NCBI RefSeq assembly: GCF_029227915.1
Contig: NC_079880.1
Span: 30,311,501 to 30,375,500 of the forward strand
DNA from: Hydractinia symbiolongicarpus
Taxonomy: Eukaryota; Cnidaria; Hydrozoa; Anthoathecata; Hydractiniidae
Direction: 5' to 3'
Length of the DNA stretch: 64,000 bases
Below are positions 21,314 to 43,800 of this stretch, piece by piece; positions within the stretch are counted from its first letter, which is position 1; each line of letters starts with the position of its first letter. A program made the position numbers and the translations under genes. Below the pieces are notes generated by a model. It was not told the origin of the DNA and searched no databases. It worked only from the letters and a program-made list of their open reading frames with translations.

Positions 21314-22625
21314 GTGTCTATCATCAGCAATGGAGAACTCTTTTGTCAAGCAGATCTAAGTGTTGTTCCAAATCAAAAGGCGTTCACTGACATCGTATTA
21401 GAGGCATTTTCCATAGGGACGCCTAAGGCTAATGTCGAACACTGGGCTACTTGTACAGAGGTTCATGCAGATGGTGAGCATCAACACTACCACATGGCAT
21501 TGAAACTGAGTGGAACCCGTCGTTGGCGCCCCATTCATCAGCACATTTGCAAGACACGTAAGATTTCTGTGAACTTCTCATCCAAAAACTATGGGTACTT
21601 GGCTGCATACCGTTATGTTTGCAAAGATAAACCGTTTGAGTCAGTTTTGCACAGCAAAAATCACCCAAACTTAAAGAATGCCAAATCACCAGTGTCAAAG
21701 CGGGTGTTTCACTCGTTTTTCCCAAAATTCAAAGAAACGCCGGTGTTTGAAGGGTCCAGTACAAAAACTGGAAGCTTCAGCTAAACGACGCTTATCTAAT
21801 AGTGATGTTGCCAAGTTTCTTGTTGAAAACGACATAAAAAATGACACTCAGCACATGTCAGTGGCAAACCGGAGATAAGCTGAGAATCAGCCAGACTTAT
21901 TCAATTTTATCTTAAATAAGTCTTCAAAGGCATTCTCAGAACTCATTTCTGTAACTTGGAAAATGCACAGTGCCCCTAAAGCGATCGAGCGACAGCAAAA
22001 ATGTAGACTTGACGTTGTGGTAGAAAAATCAAACACAGCCTGCGTAGACGGATGCAACGGCACTTGGTTGGTGTGTGCAAGGCAAGTGTTGAGAAACAAT
22101 AGCATCAATATATACGTTTTTGCTGATGCTCTGCGAGAATGTCTGAAGCGTGGTCGCAAGAAAAATAACAATATCCTGTTAACAGGACCAACAAATTGTG
22201 TAAAATCATTCTTGTTGAACCCTGTAGAACTAATTTTCAATTGTTTTGTTAATCCTGAACAATGTGAACTCGCCTACCTTAATTATTTTAGGTGGTCAGC
22301 GGAATTAATCGCATGGAACGAATTTCTCCTCCTGTTGGAAGGTCAGACTGTTCACCTGCCAAGGCCTAAAAACCAGTTTGCCACTGACATGGTTATAGGC
22401 AGGGACAATTCCATGCCAATTTTGGTACAAGCAAAGGTTCAATTGAACATGTTGGAAAATATAACCAGAGAGACCAACGCAAAACAGATATGATGAGTTC
22501 AAGGTGGCGAGAATTCAAATTCATTGAAGAAATCCCAAAGGAATCGATGAAAGACTTAGAACCTTGTCCGCACTGTTTTTGCGCCCTGGTTATCCAAGGC
22601 ATGGATGCGTATAATGTATAATATA
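21314..22625 (+). pseudogene. HUH endonuclease-SF3 helicase Rep, broken
   Basis: The first block (21314-21784) shows the rolling-circle endonuclease signature: GEHQHYHMALKLS (HUH) and, about 50 residues on, the tyrosine motif AAYRYVCKDKP. The second block (21963-22493) is a superfamily-3 helicase: Walker A NILLTGPTNCVKSFLL (the usual Gly before Lys is Val), then FRWSAELIAWNEFLLLLEGQ (Walker B/C region) and HLPRPKNQFATDMV. After a frameshift near 22435 a third block carries FGTSKGSIEH, RWREFKFIEEIP and a CPHCF ending near 22620. At least two frameshifts and the Gly-to-Val change make it inactive. HUH-SF3 proteins occur in ssDNA viruses and in eukaryotic rolling-circle elements (Replitron-like); which one is open. 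Confidence 0.8.
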
Positions 22626-22653
22626 TAAAAACTATGTTCGTATTTAAAAGTAG

Positions 22654-23395
22654 CTGATTTATGTTGGTCAGTGCACCGTGAAACCGGAGTTTGCTCACTC
22701 CTCTCTTTGTATAGAGACACTGTAAGAAGCACAGCAAGGGGAATTGATATCATATCTTGTCTTTGGGCTTAACGATCCCACTTATTACCCCAGTCCAGTA
22801 GGGAGGCAGAGTTTGCTCACTTTGCTTTCAGGATTGACAATCCTGCTGCCCTTAGTCATTTTAGAAGAAGCTTTGCAAGATTTTCTTATCTGGTCTTCGT
22901 GGTGTTACGCCCACGCATATTACCCCAGTTATGACAGGCTGGTACTGTCATTAGGCAGGTCCACAGCAACAATTATCTGTGTAAGGCTGAGTGTTGGAGC
23001 TCCATAACACATGTGGAAAGCTACAGCCAGGGTCACAAGTCCTGGCGCGCAGATAGTTGTTTGCTTCTTAAACACATTCTCTAAAGAATAATTTTAAATT
23101 TATCCGTTTAAGGATATTCACGTTATGATAAGTTTTATTTATCTCATTTGTACCTATTCAATTCATTTTGAATTGCTTTAATATTTATTGTTTAGTGTTG
23201 TGTTCTGTCGCTGTTGTATTTTTCTACCTTTTACGGTCAATGTTTTTAGGAAATCCTTGCAAAAAGGGGGATTTTGCTTTTCTGAAAAATCTCTAGAGGG
23301 TTGCAACCTCTAACTATAGTAGAACCAGCTGTCATTAGACAAGAAATATCATTACAGCTAGCTGTTTTGTCACCTCATTATCAATATTATATTCC
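22654..23395 (+). repeat. Structured 3'-UTR-like repeat, family 2 copy a
   Basis: No coding. A series of hairpins with different stems and similar loops (GGAGT..ACTCC, TGGG..CCCA, CAGGAT..ATCCTG, CGTGG..CCACG, TGACAG..CTGTCA). Several are followed by TTATTACCCCAGT. It ends in a TCTAGAGG/CCTCTA hairpin and a TTGTCACCTCATTATC tail. Related copies occur at 33755, 34441 and 52433. The same plan as the 3' UTR of the USP retroelement (33015-33682) suggests a sister family. Confidence 0.65.
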
Positions 23396-23397
23396 AT

Positions 23398-23605
23398 GCG
23401 TCACAAGTGCGTCACATATGCGTCACAAGCTATATAGTACTATGCTCTAACAGAATTTAATGCGTCACATGCGTCACATCCAAAGTTTTAAAAGAATAGT
23501 ATATATATCTTTAAAAAAAATGTTGTGACGCATGTGACGCATACATTTAACAGTTAAACACATGCAAAAAGCCGAGTGACGCATTAGTGACGCACTGTGA
23601 CGCAT
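23398..23605. repeat. GCGTCAC / GTGACGC inverted array
   Basis: Five GCGTCAC heptamers (two clusters) followed by five GTGACGC heptamers, forming a large interrupted inverted repeat just outside the mariner stop codon. Could be subterminal binding repeats of a transposon or a foldback element. Confidence 0.75.
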
Positions 23606-23634
23606 AGAATTTACAGCTAAATATCTTTAAAAAC

Positions 23635-24749
23635 TTAATATTTTGTTCTGGCACCTTTGTGCTTTTGCACAAGTGCCAACCTTTTTGGCATTGATGATAT
23701 CAGGTTGTCAATAGTTTGTTTTGGAATACCTGTCAACATGGTTTGCTTGATTCTGTTCACAAACTGTTCATATGTTTCTGCTGTGATGTTCTGTTTCATT
23801 GCGTCTTCTTTTAATTTTGTCCTAACCAGGTGAAAAAGATTTTCTATTGGGTTTAGATCCGGGGAGCGTGCCGGTATTTTGACCATGACATAACCTTTGC
23901 GCTCCAAAGCCACCCTCGCTGCTTTTGAATTTTGTTTAGGACATCCATCCTGAAGAAACTTGTACGGTAGCGCAGAGTCGCTCTTCGCGAAGGCAGTGGG
24001 GAATTGTTCATCAATAACATACCTGGCAAAATTGTCGCCAGTGATTTTCCAGTCATGATGGTGACACATGACAACCCCATAACCAAAACTAATCGCAACG
24101 AAAAAATTTGCCATCTTACCCCACTGCCTTCTTTTCGTCCTTTTGTTGTGATAGAAAGACCTTTGTTGGGCCTACGCCAGGTCATACTTGATACTGTTCT
24201 CGCCTCTCCAGCTGGGTTGGGCTTAAATGCAAATCCAATCCCATCCGAATAAAACCCAATCTCCTTAGTCCAGTACACAGCCGGCAGATTTAACTGTTGC
24301 CTAGCAAACTTCGTGCGAATGGATTTGTCTTTCACGCTTAAAAGTCCTTTTTTCCTTGATTGACAATACTTGTAACCATGTTTCTGCAAACAACGTCGTA
24401 TGTCTCTGTTACTTATCTTCCAGCCGAGTCCTGCTGTCTCTTGAACTTTCTTCGAGGAGAACTGTACCCCATTCCGTCGCAATTGTGCCACAGTCCTGAC
24501 AATTATTCGTTCCATACGGATAGACACCTTTCGAGGGCGACCTTGGTTTTCTTTCCGTGGATCGAACGGGGCAGCGGCATCCATAGGTTTTTTTGCATGC
24601 CTGTAAATGGTCCGCTTTGCAAACTGTTTTCCATAACGCTTGACAAGCTCATATCAACTCAGACCGTTCTCCTGATGCAATATCCTCAACTTCATGGAAG
24701 TTTGTAGGTCCATTTTTTGATACTTACCCCGACTGTTTTTTGGAGACAT
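23635..24749 (-). pseudogene. Tc1/mariner transposase (DD34E)
   Basis: Starts at 24749 (MSPKNSRGKYQK) with a helix-turn-helix N region; one TGA lies near 24652. GRPRKVS (GRPR-like) follows at about 24530. Catalytic motifs are GFYSDGIGF (first Asp), LQDGCPKQNS (second Asp) and SPDLNPIENLF (Glu, 34 residues later). A frameshift near 24110 joins two frames (24584-23853 and 24114-23635). The protein cuts and pastes its own DNA at TA sites. With only one stop and one frameshift it is a recent pseudogene. I could not define terminal inverted repeats with confidence. Confidence 0.9.
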
Positions 24750-25443
24750 TTTGATTTTGCGCTGGTTTTATGTTTATATATATCTTTCTTTTTTGACTCA
24801 ATATACATGTACCCTTTCATTCTTGAAAAGGTATATATATATTTTTTGCGCGTAGTGATTTTCACCCAAAACATTTTGCGCGTTGCTTCTGTACTAAATT
24901 TTGCGCGCAAATAATTTTTTTTCGCACAACTGCGTCAAAATTAATACCCACAAAAATTAGTAACAATAACGTATTCATCTAACTACAATTTTTCACGGAA
25001 TATTATAATGTCTCGCGATTATCGAAAAATGCCCCATTCGCCTCGTCATCTATTGTTTTAGCATTTCTATCGTTTCCAATTTTAGCATGGCACAAAAGAA
25101 ACAATGCTGGTACATACTTCAAAACATATATATAGTATCCACCTTTGAATTAATTTAAAAATTAAGTCAAAAAAAATTACTGCAAAAAATTGCCGAAAGA
25201 ATTCTAAGTCTAAAATTTCAGAGACAATCCCGGTCAAAATATATTGGCAGTAAGCTACAAAAAGTGCAGTATAATCCTTTCTTACCCCCTCTCCCCCATT
25301 ATCAATGTTTGGAAACGCGTTAGCACAACTTTTGAACATTGATACTGGGGGAAAGGGGGCTTTGTACTTATCAAGCTCTTGCTACACATGAAGAAAGGGT
25401 TTACTGCCATTATTTTTGACCGGGATTGTAGGTGATAATAATA
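24750..25443. other. Non-coding, TTTTGCGCG repeats
   Basis: Between 24765 and 24910 the motif TTTTGCGC(G) occurs four times at irregular spacing upstream of the mariner gene. From 24915 to 25443 nothing else is seen. Confidence 0.5.
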
Positions 25444-25669
25444 CAAACTTTGCAACACTCCTGTACCGTGTTGCAACACGGTACATGAGTGTTTCTTATA
25501 TAGAGCAAATAAATTTAGAAGTTATTGCTGCTACAGCTGATGGTGCTTCACCAAACCGACTTTGCAACACTCGTGTACCGTGTTGCAACACGGTACATGA
25601 GTGTTTCTTATATAGAGCAAATAAATTTAGAAGTTATTGCTGCTACAGCTGATGGTGCTTCACCAAACC
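25444..25669 (+). repeat. 113-bp tandem duplication with a 22-bp palindrome
   Basis: Two nearly identical units inside the P-element coding region. Each contains a perfect palindrome whose left half is GTACCGTGTTG. The duplication breaks the transposase frame. Confidence 0.85.
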
Positions 25670-26459
25670 GTCGTTTTTTAGAATGCACAACTTATTATGT
25701 CGGTAGTCAGAGAAAAATGTAGTGTATCGTTCCATTAACCTATATGCTACAGATAAATGTTTTATATATTTTTTTGCTGATGTACCCCGTCTCATTAAAA
25801 CAGCTCGCAATTGTCTGTCCAACTCTGATTCTGGTAGAGCAACACGGTACATGTGGAACAGTGGGTTTTTTGTACTTTGGAGTCACATATCTCAGTTATA
25901 TCATGAAGATCTTAAAAGTGACTTAAAGTTAGTTCACAAGTTGACAAATGATCACATAAATTTGACACCTTATTCTAAAATGAGAGTCCGTTTGGCTGCA
26001 CCAGTACTAAGTGAAACAGTTGGAAATGTAATTAATGAGTTTGGTCCACCTGAAGCAGATGGCAATGCACCATTTTGCATTATGATGGATAAGTTTTTTG
26101 ACTGCCTTAATGTTAAAAACACTGTTGACCATGAATTGAATAGAAAACCATTTTCAAGACCATATGAATCTATCGATGATATCAGTTTCACCTGGCTGGA
26201 CGATTTTCTCTCTTATTTCCAATTATGGAAGGAATCGCATAAAGAACGCAATGATCATCCTTATACTGCACAGGCAAGATCGAATATCTTCATCTCTTGG
26301 CAGACGTATGAAGGATTACAAATGACTGTACATTCCTTTAAAAAAGTCTGTAAATTCTTACTTGAGCATGGCGTACGTTATATTTTGTCAGAAACATTTT
26401 GCCACAATTATTTCAAAAATTATTTTGGCAGACAACGTGCTATTGGATTACGCCGATAG
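25500..26459 (+). pseudogene. P-element / THAP9-like transposase, C-terminal part
   Basis: The reading frame carries the RNase H-like core and the GTP-binding/insertion region of P-element transposases. ATADGASPNRRF is at about 25650. Then come FFADVPRLIKTARNCLSNS (about 25780), WSHISQLYHEDL, LTNDHINLTPYSKMRVRLA, MDKFFDCLNV, ISWQTYEGLQMTV and NYFGRQRAIGLRR. The N-terminal THAP zinc finger is not present. The duplication at 25444-25669 and a stop near 25721 separate the TADGA block from the rest. C terminus ends at 26459. Most likely a 5'-damaged element copy, not a domesticated THAP9 gene. Confidence 0.88.
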
Positions 26460-26519
26460 TTATTGATGATAGTCCATTGCCAAAAAGAAAGAAAAACTCT
26501 CAATAGATGCTACATCCTG

Positions 26520-27014
26520 GACATGGATTAAAACTGTCAAACTGGCTATTTTTATAGCCACAATTTTTTAAAAAAATATTACACTGGCTATCAATATTTT
26601 TGGTCACATTCTTCAGTCCCCTTTATACTGGGACTGGAGGGTTCTAGCAGAAAACAAAGTTTTGTAGGCACACATTGTATTTACTTCACCTGGATCTTTT
26701 TGCAACTCTACAAATTGAAAAATATTTCGAAAAAAACTTACTGAAAAAACTTAATAAATTTTGTATTGCTCACTGAGAATATTTGGCGTTATCGACAAAA
26801 CCTGTGAATAAATGTCGTTCCTAATTTTTGCACTCTAAGACAGGTTAGGCAAGAATTTGTCATTGATTTCTTAACAATAATAAAGTTTAAATAAACAATG
26901 TAAAGAAATATGTCAGGCATATAGAATAAAACACATAAGTTAAAGCCAAAACATGTTTTTTTGAAAATTTGTGGCTATAAAAATAGCCTTTTTGAGAGGT
27001 TTTTAGTCCATGTC
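26520..27014. mobile_element. MITE with about 60-bp terminal inverted repeats
   Basis: Left end GACATGGATTAAAAC and right end (reverse complement) GACATGGACTAAAAAC. Both arms contain GGCTATTTTTATAGCC, itself a hairpin. No coding capacity. The target duplication was not resolved. It lies directly between the P-element gene and a truncated retroelement copy. Confidence 0.7.
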
Positions 27015-27710
27015 TAGGCCCTTATTAACAGTCACGAGTCATATGTTTTCTTTTTAGAAGAGCTGAGATAAGAATATTTTAACCGTAATAAGTCAGCAAG
27101 GGGGCTTGACTACACTCAGTCTTGTCTTTGGAGAGTGACGACTCCACTTATTACCCCAGTCAAAAATAAAACAAAATAAAATAAAAATTAAGTTAGCAAG
27201 GGGGTTTGATCATACTAGGTCTTTTCTTTGGAGAGTGACGACTCCACTTATTACCCCAGTTAAAAAAAAAAACGATTAGCAGAGGGGTTTGATCACACAT
27301 GATCTTGTCTTTGGAGAGTAACGACGCCACTTATTACCTGAGTTAAAAACAAAGAATAGCACAGTTGAACAGAAAAAGGTCAAAGTTTACTTTAGGAAGA
27401 TAGGGATGTCTGGTTTCTGCTGATGACCGTCCGCGGACGTCTTCGTGGTGACCCAGCTAGACTACTTAGGTTCAGAAATATGGGTCGAAACCTACCTGCC
27501 CTTGGTTAAAGTTCTGTTCATCTTTTCAAATGTGTTGTGTCCTTTTTATTTTTTTTATATATTTTTTAATTAATTCCTTGTAAAAAGGGAGAATTGTGCT
27601 TTTAGAGGCATTTTCTCTAGAGGAATACAACCTCTAGCTTATTTCCAAAGACCTAACAGGTTGAGTTTATCATTGCGGTGGCTTGTCACCTCTTTGTAAA
27701 TTATTTTCTT
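27015..27710 (+). mobile_element. 5'-truncated copy of the USP retroelement
   Basis: Opens with the last codons of the USP ORF (INSHESYVFLLEEL, then stop) and continues through the full 3' UTR: three hairpin modules, the GTCCGCGGAC region and the end TGTAAATTATTTTCTTT. It matches 32965-33682. No poly(A) tail. Confidence 0.75.
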
Positions 27711-27747
27711 TCTTCCCAGTTCTTTAGTATTAGCTGTTTTCTTTAGT

Positions 27748-28420
27748 TCAACTCTCAAAGCACGTTTTTTGAATTCTGTTTAGCAGCCCTGTGTTTTTCA
27801 CGAATATCCTTAGCATATGAAAGGTGCGAACTTTAGTAAGCAATGTAAACATATGCTCCAACAAGTTTAAACTAATTTCTTTATCAACTTGTGGCTCCAC
27901 TTCATAACAGAATAAACTTTTGAGCTCTTTTTTTTGAAATTTCTGTGGCCTGTAGGTTTTTGGGTGTATCTTTACCAATGCCTGATAAATGGGTCAACAT
28001 ATGATTTACCACTTCTGCAAGCAAAATATTCCTAAATTGTGTTTCTTCAAATTTTGATGGTAGGATATTTTCCTTCAACATGCCATAAAAATACATGTAA
28101 AAATCTGCGGCATCCCCAGAATATTTTCAATCATTGGTCTGAACTTGTTCCATAGTTGAAAAGCATCTAATATTTTCAGGCAAACACAAATCTTTAAAGC
28201 ATGAATCAGCACATATATTTACTATTAATTTTAAAGTTAAGGGGTGAAATTTCTTCAAACATTGTTCTTCCTTTGACAGCTGTGGTATGGAAATAGTAGA
28301 GTCACAAGAATTTGTTGTGACAGTTGCTCATGTATGTTTAACATTGCAGTGCCTATAAAGACCACGTTGTGATTTACAATTTATGTCGCAATGTTGACAA
28401 CGATAAACAGCTTTATTTTT
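27748..28420 (-). pseudogene. C2H2-finger protein of unknown class, fragment
   Basis: Minus-strand reading starts with a finger CQHCDINCKSQRGLYRHC near 28400. After two stops it continues through FKDLCLPENIRCFSTMEQV, FYGMLKENILPSKFEETQ and EVVNHMLTHLSGIGKDTPK. The tail block is VDKEISLNLLEHMFTLLTK (27748-27978). I cannot name the family; such proteins are often transposon-encoded. The non-LTR element begins where its N terminus should continue. Confidence 0.45.
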
Positions 28421-28432
28421 TTTCGTTATCCA

Positions 28433-30990
28433 TTACTTCCAATTTCTTGGGGGAATTTGATCGACGATCGCTGTACCCATTCGGATAGCTCTGTTTCTGA
28501 AGTCTTATCGTTTTGTAATTCTCTTTTTGAAAAAGTGCAACTTCTAGAAGACACTATCTACAATGAAGCAGCCCAAGTTTTTGGTCACCCTGTTTACAAC
28601 GGTGGCAAAAACCTGTCAGGGAAGAATCGTCGAACAATTTTTTCCATTAATTTAATAAAAGAAAAGAATCACATCTTAGGCAAATAAAGGTTTCTTGCAA
28701 CCTAATTCAAAGGATGGAGGTGAAAGCTAAAATTACACTTTTGAGCCGAAGTGAACGGGCTAGGAAAAAGCGCCGAAAATTCAAGAAAGCTCAGGACTCC
28801 TTTAGGAACAACCCTTACAAAGCAGGAAAGGATCTGCTTGACCCAAAGTGTTCTATTTTAAGGGTTGATCAAGAAACACTTGATAACCATAAAGCTTCAT
28901 CTGTGAAAGACGATCTTTACGAAGTTCCCCTAGGCAATTTACACGGGCTACCACCAAACCCTCCTATTTCACAACCCTTTCCGGCATCTGCTTTTAAATA
29001 TAAAGATTTTTTAAAGATTCTTGCAACCCGACGAAATGCTTATTTACCAGGCATCAATGCTATACCCTATAAAGTATACAAGAAGTGTCCTAAAGTAAAT
29101 TCTGTATTGTTTAATATGTTTAAGACTTCTTTTAAAAATTGTGTTGTTCACATTCAATGGCGTTGTGCTAGTGAAATTGATATCCCTAAATCAAAAACTC
29201 CTATGGAGTCTAATATTAAAGATATCGGTCTATCGCCTTAATAAATGTAGCAGGCAAGCTTTTATTCAGTCTTGTATCAAGACGGTTAGAAGCCCACATA
29301 ATTAATAACAACAAATTTATCAATACGTTACTCCAAAAAGGTTGTATGGAAAAGGTTCCAGGTTGCTGGGAACACATGTCGATGGTTTGGGCTGCTCTTA
29401 AAGAAGCCCGAGTTAACAAGTCAGACCTCGCCACAATATGGCTGGATATTGCAAATGCATTTCCTTCAATTCCACACAATTTAATATTTTTTGCACTGGA
29501 GAGATATGGAGTTGTTCCACGCTGGATATCGTTCATCAAGACTTACTTCGGAATTGATAGGTAATCTGTTAGTTGTCCTCACCAAGCAACTGGCACAGGC
29601 ACATGCGTGGCATTTTCGCTGGGTGCACACTTTCGATCATTTTGTTTCTCGCTGGTATCAACATCATCCTTGAATACACTCCTATCTGATGCCTGCAATT
29701 ATGTTACTTCTAAGAAGGTATCCCTAACAGTAATTAGAGCTTTTATGGACGATATCAACCTCATGTCATCCTGTGTTTCGGGAACTCAAGAACTCCTAAA
29801 CCGATATACTACTGGTTTGGACCGTAAGGCGCAAAGTCAATCGGGGAACTGGAGAATAAGTTAACAACTGGGCTTACAATAATAAATAGTTCTTGTTTCA
29901 AAGACACTCAGAAACTCTGGATTCTACAAAATTTACTTATCCCTAGAATCCAATGGCCACTGCTTATTTACGAAGTTCCCATATCTCGGGCTTCAAGGTT
30001 GGAACAAAAGACATTTGCTTTTATCAGAAAATGGCTTTCAATTCACCCATCCGCTACTAACATCTGTCTGTACAGCTCCTGTTCGCCTTGTCCCCTGCCA
30101 ATCAAAAGTCTGCCATCACTACTAAAGTCCTCCAAAATTAGTGGCCATCTGCTTTTAAGAGACTCTAAAGACCCACTAGTCTCACATAGTGCCCCCTCCT
30201 TAAAATCGGGTAAATGGAAGGTTAATGACGCAGTTACAACGGCAGAGACAGAAGTGACAGTTCGATCCATGATAGGTACTCCCCAACTAGGTAGAGCTGG
30301 CCTAGACATCCAAAGATGTTTGAAGGTTCCCACTTCCAAACAGTCCCACGCTTACAGAAAGTTGATATCAAACACAGCCAGAGATATAGACGAGGAAGCT
30401 AACATGAGTAGAACCATGCAGTTCCAAGTACAAGGGCAGTGGACCAGATGGGAGAATTACATCCGAAATGACCTGTCCTGGAAATCCATTCTTGCTATGC
30501 CACCAAACTTGCCTTCTTTCTGTCTAGCTTCTACTTATGACGTTTTACCGTCACCCAGCAACTTAAATCGTTGGAACATTTGCACTGAATACAGTTGTTC
30601 CTTGTGTGGAAAACTTTTATGCATCACAGCACGTCTTAGGTTCTTGCAAGGTTGCCCTTACTCAAGGCCAATTCACTTTCCGACATGATTCTGTTCTTTG
30701 TGAGCCTCAAAAAATTGTGCCAGAACTTAAACCATCTCCGAAAAGTAAATTGTTTAAGATACCATTTGTTAAAGCAGGTACATACACCTCTGGGAAAAGA
30801 TCAAAACCAACAGGTCTATTCCATCACGCCAGTGACTTGGTGATACTGTCTGACTTAAACAATAGCTTTGTGCTCCCTGGTCACATAGCTGTTACATCAC
30901 TAAGATCAGACATTGTAATGTATTCCAACTGTTCCAAAATTGCTATTCTCCTAGAACTTACCTGTCCTTGTGAGGAGAATATGGAGTCCT
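28433..30990 (+). pseudogene. Reverse transcriptase and restriction-like endonuclease
   Basis: Frames shift repeatedly but the order is clear. An N region comes first (LSRSERARKKRRKFKKAQ, about 28740), then RT fingers (PGINAIPYKVYKKCPKVNS; IQWRCASEIDIPKSKTP). Motif A is IWLDIANAFPSIPH (about 29440) and the motif C active site is AFMDDINLM (about 29745). The thumb region follows, then a zinc-binding segment (CSLCGKLLC ... GSCKVAL) and TFRHDSVL. A restriction-like endonuclease core is SDIVMYSNCSK ... ILLELTCPCEENMES (Asp and Glu of the PD-(D/E)xK fold, about 30910-30990). A TAG at 30990 ends the sub-ORF, but the same frame continues. RT copies the element RNA at a nicked target. Confidence 0.88.
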
Positions 30991-31535
30991 AGCACTGTAC
31001 CAAACTTTCTAAGTACTCCTCTTTAGTCGAAGTAAAACGTAGAAACGGTTGGTCTCCACATCTTTACGCTGTTAAAGTAGGTGCTGGAGGTTACTGTTCT
31101 AGGTCCCTTACATGTTGTTTAAAGACTCTCGGTTTTTCCAACAAATCTGCATTCATAACTGCACGCAAACTTGGTGACATATGCATGAAAACATCATTTT
31201 GCATCTGGTTTGGTGGAGATTCCCTGCAATGGTCCCAAGAATGCAGTCCAACAACATCCACAACCTCAAACGATCGTATGTTCCAAGTGCCTTCTTTGGC
31301 ATCCAACGCTTTTGTCGATAACGGTCCGTATCCAGCCACATCATTGCCAAAGCCCGCAGTTGCCTTAAAGATCAAATCCAAGCAGAAAGCTAACAACGCC
31401 CATGCCGGTTTGATAAACAAGGGTAACACATGCTATGCAAACTCTATCCTTCAAGTGTTAACTGTCCTTCCAAGTCTTTTGTCTCAACTGCCATCAGAGT
31501 CCTCTTTGTTATCGCCACTAGTGAAGTCGATAGAC

Positions 31536-31580
31536 TTCATCATTGCGGTGGCTTGCCACCTCTTTGTAAATTATTTTCTT
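31536..31580 (+). repeat. Short 3'-end insertion 1 in the USP region
   Basis: About 45 bp equal to the very 3' end of the element UTR (CATTGCGGTGGCTTGCCACC ... TTATTTTCTT), sitting between coding blocks LVKSI and LNMSLLHRS. Looks like an extreme 5'-truncated retrocopy. Confidence 0.65.
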
Positions 31581-31647
31581 TTCTAAATATGTCCCTTTTA
31601 CATCGCTCCCGTTCGGCTACTGATCCTTCCAATTTCTTGCGGGCTTT

Positions 31648-32170
31648 GCAAGGGGGATTGATCATACTAGGTCTTGTCTTTGGAGAGTGACGACTCCACT
31701 TATTACCCCAGTTAAAAAAAAATAAAAAAATAAAAAAACATTAGCAGGGGGGGTTTGATCACACATGATCTTGTCTTTGGAGAGTAACGACTCCACTTAT
31801 TACCTGAGTTAAAAACAAAGAATAGCACAGTTGAACAGAAAGTGGTCAAAGTTTATTTTAGGAAGATAGGGATGTCTAGTTTCTGCTGATGATCGTCCGC
31901 GGACCTCTTCGAGGTGACCCAGCTAGACATCCAGGGTACTTAGGGTCGAAACCTACCTGCCCTTGGTTAAAGTTCTGTTCATCTTTTCAAATGTGTTGTG
32001 TCCTTTTTATTTTTTTTATTTTTTTTAATTAATTCTTTGTAAAAAGGGAGAAATGTGCTTTTAGAGGCATGTTCTCTAGAGGAGAACAACCTCTAGCTTA
32101 TTTCCAAAGACCTAACAGGTTGAGTTCATCATTGCGGTGGCTTGCCACCTCTTTGTAAATTATTTTCTTT
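31648..32170 (+). repeat. 3'-UTR insertion 2 in the USP region
   Basis: About 520 bp matching the element 3' UTR from the second hairpin module to the 3' end. It lies between coding blocks FLRALQ and the USP finger region. It shares its 3' end with insertion 1 and with the native UTR. Confidence 0.75.
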
Positions 32171-33014
32171 TCTCTCACTGTTAGATTAACAACAACAACA
32201 TCTTGTAACACTTGTTTGTGTTCCTCTTCTAAAGAAGATAAGGAGACAATTCTTACTTTACCAACATGCAAGTCAATAGGGGACTCTTCCAAGGCAATTT
32301 CGCAGTCGCAACAGCTTGTAGGTGACGACAGGTGGTTTTGCCCCCAGTGTTCATCACACCAGAAGAACACAACTGAAACACAAATTTCCAGTTGTGGCGA
32401 TATCCTTGTTGGTCAGTTACTTAGGTATGCGTCAGTTAATGGTTCTTCTTTCAAAGATACAAGATCGGTGAACTGTCTGCCTACGAAACACCAGGAGCTA
32501 ATCGTGCTTTCTCACCCTACTGATGAAATTTCCTTTAGCAACAAGTACAGATTAGTCGCCACCATTAACCATTCAGGTATCTTAAAAGCAGGACATTACT
32601 GGGCGTTTTTTAAAGATCAACGAAACACTTGGCTTAAGTGCAACGACTGCTGCGTTTCAGAAGTCAATTCATCTAACTCGAATAATTCATCCTGTTACAT
32701 ACTCATTTTACAGCTAAAACGTTTTGCCAGTGCCAACGGCCTTGTGTCAAAAATTGCCTCTCGTATTACTGCTTACCCTGGTACCCTTTCCATACCTTTT
32801 ACCGTAGATTGAGAAGTAAAATTTCGTAAAAATTTTCAATTAAGGGCTATTATCAACCATTGCGGCAACTTAAATAATGGTCACTACACAACCATAGCCT
32901 TCCACCACATGGTTCACAGGTGGATACATCGCAACGATAGAGCAGTAATTTTCTGTGATGACCGCCTTATTAACAGTCACGAGTCATACGTTTTCTTTTT
33001 AGAAGAGCTGAGGT

Positions 33015-33682
33015 AAGAATATTTTAACCAGAATGAGTCAGCAAGAGGGCTTGGCTATACTCAGTCTTGTCTTTGGAGAGTGACGACTCCACTTATTACC
33101 CAAGTCAAAAATAAAAATAAAAACAAAATCAAATAAAAATTAAGTTAGCAAGGGGGTTTGATCATACTAGGTCTTGTCTTTGGAGAGTGACGACTCCACT
33201 TATTACCCCAGTTAAAAAAAAATAAAAAAATAAAAAAACATTAGCAGGGGGGTTTGATCACACATGATCTTGTCTTTGGAGAGTAACGACTCCACTTATT
33301 ACCTGAGTTAAAAACAAAGAATAGCACAGTTGAACAGAAAGTGGTCAAAGTTTATTTTAGGAAGATAGGGATGTCTAGTTTCTGCTGATGATCGTCCGCG
33401 GACCTCTTCGAGGTGACCCAGCTAGACATCCAGGGTACTTAGGTTCAGAAATATGGGTCGAAACCTACCTGCCCTTGGTTAAAGTTCTGTTCATCTTTTC
33501 AAATGTGTTGTGTCCTTTTTATTTTTTTTCTATTTTTTTAATTAATTCCTTGTAAAAAGGGAGAATTGTGCTTTTAGAGGCATGTTCTCTAGAGGAGAAC
33601 AACCTCTAGCTTATTTCCAAAGACCTAACAGGTTGTGTTCATCATTGCGGTGGTTTGCCACCTCTTTGTAAATTATTTTCTT
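33015..33682 (+). other. Native structured 3' UTR of the USP retroelement
   Basis: Three modules (33038-33106, 33145-33212, 33242-33309) each contain TGGAG, an AGT(G/A)ACGA loop, CTCCA and TTATTACC. A larger fold follows: GATGTCTAG (33370) pairs with CTAGACATC (33422) and encloses GTCCGCGGAC and CCTCTTCGAGG hairpins. A CTCTAGAGG/CCTCTAG hairpin and a terminal GGTGG..CCACC hairpin complete it. Probably the RNA recognised by the RT. Confidence 0.7.
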
Positions 33683-33754
33683 CTTCTTTTAGCAGGACTT
33701 TCCCTAGAAAGAAATTTCCCTAGCGGTTCTAATTTACCCCAGCTAATCCTTGGC

Positions 33755-34440
33755 CGGTTAGTTTACCGTGATATAGGAGTTTGGTCACTCCCTTCTCTCT
33801 CTTGAGATCCTGTAAGAAACATAGCAAGGGGGCTAGACTTTTTGTCTTGTATTTTTGGGTTTGACGGTCCCACTTGTTACCCCAGTCCAGTAGGGAGGCA
33901 GAGTTTGCGCACTTTGCCTTCAGGATTGACGATCCTGCTGCCCTGAGTCTTTGATATTCTTGTCTTGTCTTCGTGGTTTGACGCCCACGCACATCACCCC
34001 AGTCATGACAGGCTGGCACTGTCATTAGGTTGACCAACGCAGCAATGATCTGTGTAAGGCAGAGTGTTGGGCGCCCTTAACACGTGTAAAGCTACAGCCA
34101 GGTTCACAAGTCCTGGCGCACAGATCGTTACCTACTTTAGTTTACATTTGTTCCATTAAAAATTATTCTCAGATTTATCCGTTTAAAGATAGTTTCTTCA
34201 TAATGAGTTTTATTTATTTTACGTGTGCCTATTAATTCAGTTTGAATTGCCTAATAGTTTTGTTTGTTATTTTTTTATGTTCTTTTATTAGTGTTTTGTG
34301 CTTTGCCAATGTTTTACGCGTCCTGTTTAATGGTCAATGTATTTTTTCTGAGAGAATCCTTGTTAAAAGGGAGGGTTTTGCTATTATGCAGAATCTTTGG
34401 AGAGTTACAACCTCTATAATATATAACCAGCCGTCATTAG
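33755..34440 (+). repeat. Structured 3'-UTR-like repeat, family 2 copy b
   Basis: Same series of hairpin modules as 22654-23395, including CAGGATTGACGATCCTG and TGACAGGCTGGCACTGTCA. It lies head-to-tail after the USP element. No coding. Confidence 0.65.
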
Positions 34441-34850
34441 ACAAGCTATATCACAACGATTTCATATCTGATCTTCGTAGTGTTACGCCCACGCATATTA
34501 CCCCAGTTACGACAGGCTGGTACTGTCATTAGGCAGGTCCACAGCAACAATTGTCTGTGTAACTCTGAGTGCTGGAGCTTCGTAACACGTGGAAAGCTAC
34601 AGTCAGGGTCACAAGTCCTGACGCACAGATAGTTGTGTGCTTTAACTTACACACATTCGTTAAGAATAATTTCAAATTTATCCGTTTAAGAATATTCACG
34701 TTATAATAAGTTCTATTTATCTCATGTGTACCTATTTAATTCATTTTGAATTGCTTTAATATTTGTTGTTTTGTGTTGTGTTCTGTCGCTGTTGTACTTT
34801 TGTGCTTGTTACGGTCAATGTTTTTATAAAAATCCCTGCACAAAGGTGAT
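34441..34850 (+). repeat. Structured 3'-UTR-like repeat, family 2 copy c (partial)
   Basis: Repeats the later part of family 2, from TCGTAGTGTTACGCCCACG through TGACAGGCTGG/CTGTCA to GTTACGGTCAATG. It directly follows copy b. Confidence 0.6.
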
Positions 34851-36395
34851 GCCGTAAAAACCATTGCAGCAATTGGGACATGTTGTAATGGTAGATAATA
34901 TTGTGCAAACATTTTTAAACAGAACGAACCGACATGCGTGATGTGTTCGACGTTTACTTTGCAAACATGGTTTCAGTTGTTGTGTACAAGCTGTAAATCG
35001 GCTTTTTTAGCACTACAGTATTGAAAGCCTTTCGTATTAATTTCTTGTTCATACAGTGCATATGCATAACCTTCAAAATGCGAAGTCATACTTGTTCGTC
35101 GACCAGGATGTTGTTTTGGCGAGTTTTACACTTTCTTGTGATAATATGCTTATTTGGATATAGCTGTGCATAGCCTTTTCTTCAAATCGTCATAATCTCT
35201 GTTTTTACAGTGCTCTAACTACTTTTGTAATGGTTTCTGTGGCTTAAAGTTTTCTTTGACATCAAGCTTCGCAGTTGATAAAAAACTCTAACTTGCCGTA
35301 TGATGCATTCGCTTTCTCCCACAATCTTTTTGAAATAGAAATTATGTCGTGTTGGTGTAGGTGTTGATTAATTGATATTATGGGAAGTTCATATGCCTTT
35401 TTGAAAAACCTAGAGACCTCAATCTCCTTCTTTCTGAAGTGCATATAATCGATTACCGTCAGAGTTTCGATGAAAGTTACCAGTCAATTCAATGTTTTTC
35501 TAGTTTTTATAACAATCTGGATTTCGTGTTTAGTCCAGTTCAGAATGTGATATGTTGGTGTTAGGACATGTAAAGCGAATGAATTGTGAGCAATGTATTT
35601 GTTATGTTCGCTAAGTTCACTACACCATATTTTTCGAACTCTCTTTAAGTACTTACTTTGGATTCTGTTTTTGTTGAGTGAGCCTTTGTACGAAACATTC
35701 TAAACAACAACTAGATACTTGTTCGTCATATTTTCTGCTATCGGTTGGATCTTGACACTGTTTATTTCCATTATTTCATTTATGCATTCTTATTTTCCAC
35801 GTTCAAATAAGTTTTATACAACTTGTAGACAACAGACATGACATGACAGTTTCTCAGTCTTCAAAAACTATAACTGTTTTAGAAGGCATTTCATTTAAAC
35901 TCTAATACTTTGGTCCCATCCTCTCTTTGCTTCACTATAGTGTTTAATATTACAAATCGATAGGATAATACCAAATGTAAAAATGTAAAATCTTTAGAGA
36001 GTATAGCCTCTACATGGCAACAACCATTTGTCTTAAGACAAGTATATCATTACAGCTTGGTTTTCTATCACCTCGTCATCGTTATATGCATGTATTCTTA
36101 ACTGTACTGACTTGTCATAGTTGTAACTGACAATTTCAAATTCACTCCTACAGTAAATCAAATTGATTTACCATAGTTTCCAAGATCAGATAACATAACA
36201 TGTTCTTCAGTATTCAATAACTTTTGCTATTCCAGAAAGTAATTCATTTCATAAAATCTAATACTTTGGCCATACACTTTATATATTTCACAATAGTGTT
36301 AAATCTTCAAAATCAATAAACTAATACCAAATAATATCTTCATATTTTCAAATGTATTAAATGTACTGACTTTCCACAGTTGTATCTAACTTTTC
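34851..36395. other. Mostly non-coding, degraded repeats
   Basis: A minus-strand ORF at 35262-35444 (HFRKKEIEVSRFFKKAYELP) belongs to no family I know. At 35985-36095 a remnant of the family-2 UTR end (TTTAGAGAGTATAGCCTCTA, TATCACCTCGTCATC) is present. Nothing else seen. Confidence 0.45.
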
Positions 36396-36507
36396 TAAAG
36401 GCCCGTTTCCACTCCAATTTTCCGTGGACAGGAAAAAGTTCCACGGAATTTTTTCTACCGGCATTTCCACAACGCGGGAAAATCAGAAAACGAAATCGAA
36501 AATAAAA

Positions 36508-37773
36508 ATGGCTGCAATAAATAGACACATGCTTTTACTAATTTTGCTGCGATGAAGATTATCTAGAGCAAGGCAAAGCAAGCGATGTTGGGTTCGTAAA
36601 ATACTTTCCGAACGTACTTTCAAAGGTGAATATCATGTGCTCATTCAAGAAATGAAATTGTTTGACCATGAGTACTTTTTTAAACAATTTCGCATGTCAC
36701 CAACCCGGTTTGAGCATTTGTTGTCACTGATTGCTCCAATTATTACGAAATGTTCATTGCGCAGGGAGGCAATTAGTCCGTCAGAAAGACTTTGTTTAAC
36801 ATTACCCTATCTAGTGACTGGTGATTCTCAAGTATCCATTGCATGTAGTTATCGCGTAAGTCCGACATCAATTACTCGCATAGTTGCAGAAACGTGCGAA
36901 GCTCTTTGGACGATGTTATTGAGAGAAGGCTACTTGAAATGTCCTACAACGAGTGAAGAGTGGAAAAAAATATCCCAAAAGTTCGAAGAATTATGGAACT
37001 TTTTAAACTGCGTAGGTGCAATTGATGGTAAACACGTTATGATGCAAGCACCTGCATCATCTGGCTCTACTTTTTTTAATTATAAAAAGCATCACAGCAT
37101 AGTTCTGTTAGCTGTATGTAATGCCACTTACGAATTTACGCTAGTGGACGTAGGTCAGTCAGGACGGAATAGCGATGGAGGAGTGTTTTTAAATAGTGAC
37201 CTTGGAACGGCAATAAACGATCAAACGTTGGGCATTCCTAATGCAAGAATACTTCGTGGAACTCAAGAGAATTTCCCATATGTTTTTGTGGGTGATGAAG
37301 CATTTCCCCTCAAGCGATTTATGATGAAACCATATGCTAGAAGCAATCTTAATAGCAAAAAAAGAATATGTAACTACCGCTTTTCTCGAGCACGGAGGGT
37401 TATAGAGAATTGTTTTGGAATATGCGCTTCAAGATTTCGAATCTTCCGTCGACCAATAATAAGAAAAATAGAGACTGTTGTGAAAATAACAAAAGCTGTG
37501 GTGGCTCTCCATAATTATTTAATGAAACACAAATCGGCTAGTTATTGCCCCTCAGGTTACCCTGATGTAGAGGCGACAAATGGTATAACACCTGGAGAAT
37601 GGCGAAGTGAAACAACAGATTGTAATGGCTTATTACCTATCGCTAACCAAGGTTCTAATAATTTTAGTAGGTCAGCAGCACAGATACGAGATCAATTTTG
37701 CAGATACTTTAATTCTCCGGCTGGTTCATTAAGTTGGCAATGGGATATAGTAAATACAACTGCAGATATGTGA
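36508..37773 (+). CDS. Harbinger (HARBI1-like) DDE transposase
   Basis: ORF of 378 codons from 36637. The frame extends upstream to an ATG at 36508, with a single TGA at 36553-36555 between. Features are an N-terminal helical region (RMSPTRFEHLLSLI; a helix-turn-helix around SYRVSPTSITRIV) and a DDE_Tnp_4 core. Its catalytic residues are in GAIDGKHV (Asp), VGDEAFPL (Asp) and RRVIENCFG (Glu). All three are intact and no other stop is present. In this superfamily the transposase needs the Myb/MADF partner for DNA binding and nuclear import. If translation starts at an internal codon, or the TGA lies in an unseen intron, the protein may still be functional. Confidence 0.92.
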
Positions 37774-37825
37774 TAACTTTGTAATATATACATAATAAGT
37801 CTATATATATTGTATATGATGTAAC

Positions 37826-40800
37826 TTATTCTTCCTCTGTCAAGTTATAAAACAATTCACTTATCTTCATTTTCGCATATTGTTGTTTTCGGTTTGATAA
37901 CTCCTTCAAAGTATGTACAAAACTAAGTAAAAACGAAGTTTCAGAATCATTTTCAGCTTTTGAAGGAGTAACTTCCTTATTGTTGTCATCACTTAATGCT
38001 TTTATTAACAAAGCATCAACACTTATTTGTAAATCTGCTTTTCTTTTGGCAGATTTCCTTCTTAATGGCTCAACGTTCTCCTGCAAACCATCGTCAACAG
38101 TTTGACTTTCAATAGATATGGGTAAATTTGATGCAGTTTTTCGAAGCAGTGAAACGTCTTTCAGGAAATCCAGCTCAGCAAAAAAATTGCAAGTGGGCAG
38201 CTTTTTGTTGCCTGCCCCTGAACGTGTCATCTTCTCTCTTCGTTGAAGGCACTTCCGATAGTTGTCACGCAACTTCTCCCATTCCTTTTTCAGATATTCC
38301 ACTTAAATAAAATAAATTTCTTAAGATATATATCTCGGGCAACTTACGTCGTCTTTAATTTTTTCGGGAGAAGCACGTGTATACCGCGTTTCTTTAAATT
38401 ATTTCCCACGTTTTGCTGTTTGACGTGTTCTTTTGACGTGCTGATTTTGTGGGAGGATACATCGCTGACATGCCATTATTTTTAATCAATATCTTATATT
38501 AAATAATTATAAACTTTACAAGTGACAAGAAAATAGCTAGCTAAACAGCAAAACAAAGTTCTCCGTTTCTCAGACTGATATAGTACAGGCGATTGTGCGT
38601 AGTATAATCGAGTTTCAATATATTGAAACATAAAAATTTTAGAAAATCTCTCAGTTGACAAGTTGGCTCGTTGCATTTGATATCTCGAGACAATCAACAT
38701 CTACTTTATCAACCTTCGTTTTGTATTTCTTGATCCTCGAATACAGAGTATTGCTGAACGCAGTAAACAAAATGATAATTTCGTCCGAAGCCAGTTTGTA
38801 ACGGTACTTTGTTCTAGATTTCTTTTTTCCGCTACTTTATGCGACAGAGTGGGGATAAAATGTTCTGTCTCTCGACTGGACCCCCCATATGGTGTGAAAA
38901 TCAGCGGTGTAAATGATCCGTGTTCTACTTCTAGCACTCTTTGTCCATATGCACGTTTCTTGATGTTTTCATTCGATTTGAATGCATTAGGCAGTTTCTG
39001 ATTGAGGTATGTCAAAGCGAATGGGTTAAATACCCTTACGTCAAAAAATGCTCGTTGACCTCGTTGCCAGAATCCTCTAACGCTAATGTCGAGTCTAGCT
39101 TCATCTGTGGAGTTTGCAGAATTGCTTAATTTTTCTCCAGTCAGCTGTTGTAAATGCGGTTCTGTTTCTACATCATTGGAAATCTCTTCAGATATTTTTG
39201 CCAAAGTATCTCTTAATTCGTCGTGACGTTGATGAATATAGCCACCCTTGATACATGACATAGGAAGGTCAATCGTGAAGCGTTTTCCACAGACACAAAT
39301 TGTTGGTAGGAGCTTCAAATCCCACCGATATCTCATTCGTATGGCATCATAAAACTCTCTTTTGTTGAGTGCATAATTCTCAGATTTTATTGGGAGTGCT
39401 GAAAACCAACTTGAAGCACCTTTCATTGTCGCCAAATCATTTGCTCGTAATTGCTCATTCGTCATGCGTTGGCGAATTTCTTTCAGCTTTTCGTTGTGCA
39501 ACATTTGTATCTGTTTAAGGATTTTGCTTTTGATATTATTGTGTAACTGTTTGTCAAGTTTATAAGACGTTTGCTGTAGTTTAATTCTTTCTGCTAGTTG
39601 TTTTGTCATTTCAACAGAATTTTCATGTTCTCTCTTTGATGATTCGACTAATATCACAATTCCCATACCACCATAGCGAATTGGTAAACTCAGTAATATT
39701 CTCTCGTTTTCGGTACATTTATGTCCCTCTGTCAATGCTGGGATCAATGTATTGTCGATAACATCGTCCAGTACTTTGATATACTTGCTCATATCCCCAA
39801 GTGTCCGGATAAAATAGTTAAATTTGTGTTGAAATCCACTTATGTAAGCAGCATAGGCAGCGTGTGGTTGAAAAAGTGCAATTGTAGCTAACTTCTTTAT
39901 CTGAACAATCCATTCATTTACCAACCCAATGATGTACTTTTCTTTCTCATCTTGTGTACCTATAAAGCTGCCAAAATATTTATTTCCAACTGTAGTGATG
40001 TTTATCTTCGTGTCACTGAAGACATCATCAGCTACTAATTTATGTTCATCCTTTACTATTAACCATGATTTTGTTGCTTTAGGATAATAGCCGAATAATG
40101 GACCATAATGCTCAACTTTATCCCACCATTTTCTTAATTCAAATATTTTTCCGGCACCTCCCAGATCATCAGCATAAGCGCAGTGAGTTATGTTCAACTT
40201 TCTATCTTCCACGTCATTCTTCAACAGCGGGAGAAGAGGAACAATTCCAACTGCATAAGCTGGCATAGCGAACGGGTCACCTTGAGTTGTTCCTTCTGCC
40301 GATAATATTTCTTTCCCACCCATAACAAACAGCCTCGATGGTGAGCTATAACAATTTTGTATATACGTAGACATAGCTGGACATATGTATCGGATATTAT
40401 GAAGTAGCACTTTCCGATTAAGTGAGTTAAAAGCATTCGTAGCATCTACTAAAAGTAATGCGTCTGTTCCTTCTTCTTCAAAAATTGTTGTCATGGCATG
40501 AGCAGCTGCCTCACATCCAGAAGGTAGACCAGCACATAATTGGAGAGAACCAGCGCTTTCAAGTATTTCCGGTTTGATTACTGATATTATGGACTTTCCA
40601 ATCACCCTTCGAAGAACCTCCCCCACACCGATAGGCCGCACACCAGGTTTCTTATCTAGTGGTATTAACCTACAAGCGATGTATGCTTCCAGTGAATTGC
40701 CTTCTGTGTGATCAAATGCAGTTGCACAAAGATTTTTCGCGAACCGAGCCAAAGATGATCTCAATTCCACGCCGATCTTTCCAAAATTCTTTGACACTAA

Positions 40801-43800
40801 TATACGTCTCCAGCCATCTGAATTCATTCCTGACGGTCCTGCTAAACCTTTTGTACGAAGTGCGGCTTTTAATATTGTTGTTTCATCTATGTTGTTGTAA
40901 ATAGCAGGATCGATAAATGGGATTTCCCCTTTGAGAAGCACAGATTCATCAGCGTCAACAGGATTTGGATGTTTCAACCTCAGTTCTTGGAGTGTCTCAT
41001 CAGTTAGATCCAGTACTCCACCAGACATCTTATCATCCAATAATCTTAGTGCAGCATGTATCTTTCCTTGAAGCATTAGTTTTGCGAAATTTTTAGCGCA
41101 CTGCTCTGGAGTATTCAGGGAATTTGGTTTTGGGATTTTAGATTGTATAGTCCTCGATTCTCTCATCAAATCATCGAATCTTCCTTCCACCCAGAGATTT
41201 AATCTACGGTTAAGACATTCAGAGTGATCCTTCGCTTTGGACTTGTATGATGGTTTTTGTAGTAGAAGCATCGGCATCGTCATAACTGCTTTGATAGAAA
41301 TCCCCTTTAATAAATCTACTTGTTGGTTCCAGATTTCTATGAGTCTTATTGTTTCAGTAATATATCTCTTCCCTGCTTCACCTGTTGGTAGTAAAAACAA
41401 TTTTCTTCTCCAGTGCACAACTTCGTCGTACGTGGCATTGAAGATTTGTATCACGTCATCTAACATATGATCACCCCAAATCTTGATTTGTGCTTGATTT
41501 CTATTTATAACAGTGGTTTCGTAATGATTTTCCAAAGTTTTGACACCTGAGCTTTGCGTTGTTGACTTCAATTTAATGTTTTCCTTTTTTGAAGTTTCCG
41601 TTAAAGACACCCCTGCAATGACTTCTTTAATTTTCCTTGTATTTTCTGGGTTTTTTATCACCAGGTTTCGTTTACAGGCTTTCAAATGCAATTTAAGTCC
41701 AGAGGAACTCTTGCATTTCTTCTCACAATGCGTGCAATTGTAGTTTTCAAACCATTTTGTGTTGGGTATAGCAGTGTTTCCAGAAGATTGATTTCCTTTT
41801 TCAACCATAGAATTTTCACCCAAACTTATTTTTCTTTCCTCAGAATCATTGTCTTGTGGTGGTGGTTGATCATTATAAAATAATCGTTTAATCATTCCAT
41901 CCATGCTGTTTCAGTACAATCGATAGACGCAAAACAAATACACTAAAACTAATTTCTCTCCTACCTCAAAGGACCCCGATAAGGAGACTGCCTTTATAAT
42001 GCGCCTTCTTTAAATCTTAAATTTGATACCAAACACTCTTCGCAAACACCAACTGTCAGATAAGAATAAATTTTAAATTTACTGGGGTACCTAAGAGGTC
42101 CCCGATGAGGAGGGTGCCCTTTCAAAGCAAATCTTTAAACAAAACAAATCTTTAATTGCGTAAAGTCTTTTCAGCGTTGTGTTGGATGTAAGCCGTGTGT
42201 CAATTATACCATGAATTCCAGTTTAAACAGCAGTCAACAATGTCAAGAAGTAAGTGATTATTAATTTGTTAATCTTTTGAAACCCGTTTCGTGTCTTAAC
42301 ACAAGTTTCGCGTAGATGTGTTTACTAATTAATTACTTTTGGTTTTTTGTTTATGTTTTCGTGCCGCCATCTTTAACGGTTGTCTGTTTGCCATTATTTT
42401 TAAAGTGTGGGAAGAGAGGAGGGCAAGAAGGCAGCCATCTTCTTTACGAATGTCTTTTTGACAGAAATGTTTGGGACGTATTTGTAACAGAACACAGAAA
42501 AAAGCTATAGGTAAAATTATATACATATATATATTTTACTAAGAACTCCCAAAAGTGTTTACCTGGTTAGCTAAAGTTTAAATTTTTACCATCATGGTTT
42601 GACAGCTAGCTAGCTATACCTATAGCTATAGCTATATAAACAGCAATATAAACAGTAATAAATAACAGTCAGTCAAAAAATACAAACTCTTTATGTAGGT
42701 CTTAGATCACTGCAGATTACAGATTAGCTAGCTAAATAGTCGTGGGTGCAAATCCCGCCTCTGTACAAAAGATTAGCTTAATTATTAGAAAAGCAGTTTA
42801 GCTAGCTAGTATTCTCTTGCATTAGTAGGGTACGGATATATGCACCACATAATGAACCGTAATGAGTGAAAGTTTTTGAGTGCTTTAGAAAAGATTTTGT
42901 TATTTTATTTTTAAACTGATCTGAACTTGTTTCATGGGCGTACGTCTAAAAGTCCCTTAGTGGTTGTTAAAAACAATATATCTTTAATTTTCTAAATCAA
43001 GGATAGCTAGCTGATAAAGTATATACAAAAGTTATATTTAATAAAAGCTGTTGAAAATAATATGTTTATACTCACAAGTTTTAATGTTTATGTTTTAACG
43101 GGAGTATTGCACAGGTTTAAAAAATCGACAGGCAATTAAAATGCTGACTTAGAAAAACTTATTTCTTGTGTAAAGTTAAAACAAGACCAGACTTGTGAGA
43201 TTTGACCTTTTTTATAAATATTGTCCTCAAAATCTCTAGAATATAATATTTAAAATATAAACATTGTTTAACAATATATATATTCTGAAAAAACAAACAC
43301 TTTATATCTTCCTCCATTGATCTAAAAGTTTCTGAGCAATGTTATTTATTTTATATTTTTCCCTGCAGGTGTCATTTAACCGCAAGTCATTTATACTTGG
43401 CACCTTCAAATTTTTGTCTACAAACTGTTTTTCCCAAGTTTGAATACAAACTTGTGCTTCCTGTTGAGCATCCATAATCAATTTGCGGAAATGAAAAATT
43501 AAAACCTTTACAACTTTTTCTTGAGTTTTCGCTTTTTGTATTTTTAAATAAGACATGATGTTTATCAAACTCTTGCAATTTTACTGAGTGTCCAATAACA
43601 TGTGCAATCATCTTACCAACGCTAGACACAAGCAAATCGCTGTTCTGTGTAACAACCATTTTTGTTACTAACTTGGAAGAATGATTTTCCTTTACCTGTA
43701 TAAATTTTTCAAAACCGACGGCTTTATCATCCATGTCAAGTATTCCAGGTTGTCCTCTAGTGAAACTTCAGTAACTTCATTGTTATCTTCGCTTCCTGGT

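Follow-up and report, generated by a model that had tools for sequence, protein, structure and literature searches.

Organization of the retrotransposon copy

We analysed a stretch of 64,000 nucleotides of the Hydractinia symbiolongicarpus genome (NC_079880.1, positions 30,311,501 to 30,375,500; hereafter the window). Positions 28439-33687 are occupied by a defunct chimeric member of a non-long-terminal-repeat (non-LTR) retrotransposon family whose protein joins a reverse transcriptase (RT) and a restriction-like endonuclease (RLE) to a ubiquitin-specific protease (USP). A first-pass annotation, made from the letters alone, had placed the endonuclease block and the USP Cys box in one frame, one TAG apart. 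We find the same arrangement: in frame 30567-31586 the zinc-knuckle/RLE block (SDIVMYS, LELTCPCEENM) is followed by the Cys box GLINKGNTCYANSILQ, and TAG 30990-30992 is the single stop between them. The assignment of the protease to the USPs also agrees with profile searches, in which Pfam UCH (PF00443) matches three pieces of the window (Cys-box piece 30993-31586, E 1.5e-5; 32159-32812, E 1.4e-15; 32813-33016, E 3.6e-9). The finger region and His box said to follow the Cys box are indeed present downstream; however, the fingers and the His and Asp boxes are not in the frame of the Cys box, and copies of the family's own 3′ end, of 52 bp and 529 bp, intervene. The parts of the element, with relatives designated P0004, P0122 and so on, are as follows.

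28439..29819, + strand: N-terminal region plus RT palm, spread over three successive frames and aligning with P0004 residues 96-566, WLDIANA and FMDD kept; tblastn of P0004, P0006, P0016 and P0023, and RVT_1
29834..30637, + strand: RT thumb and linker until the zinc knuckle (P0004 632-899); 65% identity to P0004
30603..31268, + strand: zinc-knuckle remnant and RLE; 66% to P0123, 47% to P0004 across 30603-31532
30990..30992, + strand: TAG within the endonuclease, in frame; frame reading
31269..31406, + strand: variable endonuclease-USP linker, approximate limits; alignments to P0004 and P0122
31407..31532, + strand: USP Cys box GLINKGNTCYANSILQ and downstream residues in its frame; UCH E 1.5e-5 and P0122 alignment
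31533..31584, + strand: 52-bp copy of the family 3′ terminus inside the USP; 98% to 32122-32173, USP matches on both sides
31583..31651, + strand: USP segment LNMSLLHRSRSATDPSNFLRALQ; 87% to P0122 over 23 residues
31645..32173, + strand: 529-bp 3′-end copy replacing ~40 USP codons; 95.8% to 33145-33687, 90.6% to 27193-27711
32174..32704, + strand: USP zinc fingers, His box and Asp box; 69% to P0122, UCH E 1.4e-15 (32159-32812)
32702..33016, + strand: second USP C-terminal part, of another subfamily, with TGA at 32810-32812 and final TAA at 33014-33016; 44.6% to P0016 over 101 residues, UCH E 3.6e-9
33017..33687, + strand: 3′ untranslated end with internal ~100-bp repeats; self-comparison of the window
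27020..27715, + strand: 5′-cut sister copy with the final USP codons and the same 3′ end; 91.7% to 32965-33686

Homology of the window copy starts at 28439, corresponding to P0004 residue 96, and RT pieces continue in successive frames until 29819, with RVT_1 matching 29220-29564 at E 3.5e-5 and 24.1 bits, under the Pfam cut-off of 29.6. A stretch of ~65 residues upstream of 29834 is unmatched relative to the relatives. Compared with P0122, the RLE-to-Cys-box part is 62% identical and the finger/His part 69%. The catalytic Cys, His and Asp letters are all present, with about 40 of the codons between them, the QQD block included, replaced by the 529-bp copy, and this copy of the element cannot produce the enzyme. 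The second USP C-terminal part (32702-33013) directly abuts the first; it is closest to P0016 and therefore comes from a different subfamily than the preceding USP part. This double USP tail would be accounted for if reverse transcription had switched templates from one family member to another, or if the copy had recombined later.

The copies at 27020-27715, 31645-32173 and 33145-33687 have a common 3′ end and different starting points, as expected of RLE-type non-LTR elements, which leave 5′-cut copies with one 3′ end. Two other accounts of the structure were rejected. Splicing was ruled out as the source of the interruptions, which duplicate the family's own 3′ end, one of them being only 52 bp long. 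The two 3′-end copies that flank the element could mimic the LTRs of an LTR element, but the upstream one (27020) contains USP codons.

The fusion in open reading frames of relatives

Three protein searches, using as queries the endonuclease-USP junction, the RT-endonuclease part of P0004 alone, and a third aimed at shorter proteins, returned 29, 315 and 165 matches; using the best 120 of 315 and the best 120 of 165, these yielded 241 distinct proteins. Precomputed Pfam domains placed UCH in all 29 proteins of the junction search and RVT_1 also in 25 of them. Among the 241 proteins listed, the endonuclease was matched in 239, the RT in 128 and the USP in 159, and 86 contain all three in one open frame; proteins with complete matches to each domain are 1,151 to 2,151 residues long. 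The USP lies downstream of the endonuclease in 159/159 USP-matching proteins, a count that is partly by design and weaker than it looks, because all three queries contained the endonuclease and USPs without one were hardly findable. A chance origin of the fusion in the window is excluded because relatives show the identical domain order in open frames. The order in the family protein is almost certainly RT, CCHC knuckle, RLE, a Ser/Pro/Lys-rich, presumably disordered tether, and a full C-terminal USP. These open frames support the first-pass proposal that the element would encode its own USP-type deubiquitinase. Two outcomes that it had considered as contrary to this do not hold: intact copies do not all stop before the Cys box, and the USP is not found only as a host gene beside one copy, the fusion recurring across many separate records.

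The best match of the shorter-protein search was P0122, also from H. symbiolongicarpus, which NCBI names USP51-like and in which an endonuclease precedes the USP; this gene model looks like the endonuclease-USP end of the present family. Its annotation as a Hydractinia host USP is what could favour tracing the fusion to a host gene adjoining a single copy of the element, or to chimeric assembly. We give this next to no credence, since the endonuclease stands before the USP in P0122 itself, the order is identical in 159 proteins, and the open RT-endonuclease-USP frames already contradict it. The named animal proteins with a USP, among the matches listed, are from Hydractinia only (P0025, P0122, P0210), a minority of rows being named, and a cnidarian origin is plausible. 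The fusion also occurs in two records named as Pseudomonadales metagenome-assembled genomes (P0026, P0076), which are probably misbinned animal DNA. A search of genome contigs gave six loci, one (L001) matching from RT to endonuclease only and the other five matching only USP-like stretches, and a search of viral contigs gave three loci with USP-like matches only.

Conservation and divergence of the USP

Near-complete USP domains were present in 92 of the 159 proteins with any USP match. All 92 keep the nucleophile Cys, the catalytic His and Asp and the Asp of QQD; the oxyanion Asn is kept in 91/92 and each zinc Cys in 90-92. In all 92 the USP reaches to within 11 residues of the protein end. 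In an alignment of 22 members the RT WLD and DD, the knuckle and the endonuclease residues are invariant, with C886, C889, H898, C903, R993, P994, D995, E1010 and K1026 present in 22/22 rows; we take the CCHC knuckle and the RPD...E...K residues to define the RLE.

Across 67 proteins compared, USP identity drops faster than that of the RT and endonuclease. Pairs with RT identity of 70-79% have 62% in the endonuclease, 28% in the linker and 47% in the USP, and those with RT at 40-49% show 43, 26 and 29%, pairs below 45% having been sampled at about one in ten. Because the catalytic residues are kept while USP identity falls faster, the protein-level evidence indicates constraint on the catalytic core and much greater freedom in the remainder. 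The predicted USP fold superposes on cellular USPs over the whole domain, zinc-binding fingers included. The linker between the RT/endonuclease and the USP is Ser/Pro/Lys-rich with low prediction confidence and is presumably disordered. Self-cleavage of this linker at a 2A or ubiquitin-tail-like site was considered and rejected, with 2A and L[RK]GG motifs in 0/156 linkers and RGG in one.

Joint inheritance and losses

To the first 121 proteins, less 12 dropped for incomplete RT or endonuclease, we fitted a 109-row RT-endonuclease tree with FastTree, which gave a long-branch warning for P0111. The USP is found in 76/100 rows of one clade, whose long stem has full support, and in 0/9 rows outside this clade. 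Distances in the USP and RT-endonuclease trees are correlated (r 0.85; 66 proteins, 0/999 permutations), and of the 28 strong USP splits, 20 are also present in the RT-endonuclease tree and 7 clash with strong splits there.

Several features of the tree weigh against a USP that is steadily retained. A USP score above 40 is missing from 33 of the 109 rows, of which 9 (the fish-type rows together with P0111 and P0113) fall outside the clade and 8 in-clade rows are cut, frameshifted or otherwise end early; the Cys-box sequence is kept in three early-ending rows (P0041, P0057, P0103). The other 16 in-clade rows terminate 0-32 residues past the endonuclease match (P0081, P0083, P0084, P0086, P0087, P0088, P0090, P0098, P0100, P0105, P0109; and P0091, P0092, P0096, P0097, P0102), and these sister lineages seem to have lost the USP. 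In addition, the 109-row tree requires 12 USP changes, a count reached because cut proteins are scored as lacking the USP; well-supported branches make 10 or more of these changes unavoidable. In a 51-row IQ-TREE subset that we chose from the 109, excluding P0111 and the cut rows and manually scoring P0103 as USP-bearing, four changes are enough, for example one gain and three losses; whether a change is a gain or a loss depends on the outgroup root. These sequence comparisons show the USP and RT-endonuclease to be mainly co-inherited, with few losses and possible module exchange, of which the chimeric copy in the window may be an example.

Possible roles of the USP

The catalytic residues retained by the family suggest that its elements interfere with cellular ubiquitin tagging or protect themselves against it. 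We see an even chance that the USP is an active deubiquitinase whose cis target is the protein/RNA particle of the element itself; stripping ubiquitin from this particle is the likeliest use, and the main rival is that the USP deubiquitinates chromatin or repair factors where the nick is made. The USP would remain attached to the RT-endonuclease protein by a flexible tether, giving it access to the whole particle and its close neighbours, and would take off host-attached ubiquitin. The particle could then evade the proteasome long enough to arrive at chromatin, and a surviving particle would complete target-primed reverse transcription.

It is possible, if unlikely, that the USP instead targets host chromatin or repair factors, such as ubiquitinated histones, PCNA or FANCD2, so that target nicking and branched integration intermediates are no longer blocked or the signal they raise is removed; USP2, USP46, USP8 and others score equally, so likeness names no substrate. 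The nearest solved USP likewise gave no discrimination among substrates, being USP36 by phmmer (one member), USP2/USP8 by profile, USP35 by Foldseek and USP2 by VIA-align. We consider it unlikely that an old, whole clade of RLE retrotransposons tethers a deubiquitinase to its nicking enzyme and rewrites ubiquitin on chromatin or repair factors where it invades; if true, ubiquitin removal would be a step of target-primed integration, and the USP-less lineages would take another route. General opposition to an innate immune ubiquitin or ubiquitin-like host signal, rather than action on the element's protein, is quite doubtful: the cis fusion and C-terminal tether better match local action, and rapid change is also compatible with weaker constraint. 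Some lineages persist after losing the USP, and change outside the USP core is fast, both of which would suit a passive passenger that was acquired a single time and has only been tolerated since. Such a passenger is very improbable, as the entire triad is kept in 92/92 near-complete domains though RT identity drops to the 40s.

The USP-bearing and USP-less lineages provide natural plus/minus pairs, with the 16 USP-less sisters as natural controls, for asking whether ubiquitin removal helps retrotransposition. The resemblance of the Hydractinia 'USP51-like' gene model to a piece of a retrotransposon is also a caution for annotation.

Other features of the window

Inverted repeats at 26516-26579/26953-27018 directly adjoin the cut USP tail (27020), and the only Rfam match in 22000-38500 is a Histone3 3′ stem-loop at 26948-26993 (- strand). 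Repeats at 22666-23351, 33756-34453 and 34460-34846 are all on the + strand and 73-89% alike, and a 35-nt motif from the 3′ end of the USP element reappears at 33853, 33970 and 34474 (66-77%); the repeats are perhaps tails of related elements inserted in succession. A frame of 249 residues at 5428-6177 (+ strand) contains GDIESNPGP followed by TIGDGNCFYRAI, which we take to be a 2A-like motif and an OTU-like Cys box, presumably of another mobile-element-type cysteine protease. The open frame of 1069 residues at 38701-41910 (- strand) has what we take to be a finger-like N-terminus, an RT (YADD) and a CCHC/RLE-like end, and may be a second RLE-type long interspersed nuclear element (LINE) of another kind. 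A transposase with DDE_Tnp_4 (E 5.6e-31) lies within 36556-38302, beside an opposite-strand frame that we presume to be MADF/Myb-like, as in Harbinger elements.

Comparison with known systems

The family resembles the R2-type RLE non-LTR retrotransposons: P0004 302-734 matches R2 structures (PDB 9nl3, 9dou, 8gh6) with E 3.9e-28, and a CCHC knuckle and RPD...E motif follow the RT, although the endonuclease part alone gives no significant alignment to these structures. It differs from R2 in its FMDD RT motif and in the USP downstream of the endonuclease; to our knowledge, R2 elements carry no USP. The text of a 2026 R2 survey contains neither 'ubiquitin' nor 'USP' (PMC13188248). NeSL and Utopia-1_TSP are likewise RLE LINEs with an added ubiquitin/SUMO-type cysteine protease, but theirs is N-terminal and Ulp1-like (PMC4640811), whereas ours is C-terminal and a USP. 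This family does not show the N-terminal Ulp1-like protease of nematode NeSL/Utopia members: its protease follows the endonuclease in 159/159 proteins with a USP match, and in 8 pieces of the window and 5 relatives Pfam lists UCH and no Ulp1 family.

Among DNA transposons, Ginger1, Mutator and Helitron bear OTU or Ulp1 domains (PMC2836005); Ginger1 shares with our family the C-terminal position of a ubiquitin-like protease, but all three are DNA transposons with other protease families. The same paper mentions one Trichomonas protein in which transposase_11 is joined to Peptidase C19 (PMC2836005), the nearest precedent for a USP in a mobile element. The nearest experimental parallel is provided by the Helitron-encoded VTD deubiquitinases, transposon-encoded enzymes that have been assayed biochemically; for VTD relatives, the authors suggest that proteins are protected from the proteasome or that a germline limit on transposons is evaded (PMC9741609). 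VTD enzymes differ in their Asp-x-His active-site layout and in belonging to a rolling-circle DNA transposon (PMC9741609). With cellular USPs (USP2, USP46, USP36, USP35) the family shares a superposable predicted fold, the triad and four zinc Cys, but identity is 18-29% among the 50 matches listed, and the USP of the family is fused to an RT and endonuclease. Among the papers listed in our searches of open-access PMC, which does not include Repbase Reports or closed journals, none describes a retrotransposon with a USP, though such a report could have been missed. Mobile elements were known with OTU, Ulp1 and VTD proteases; here a full USP forms part of the only protein of an element that moves by reverse transcription, and is retained across a deep clade with occasional losses. 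We regard the family as a new combination within a known type, that of mobile elements equipped with a ubiquitin-type protease.
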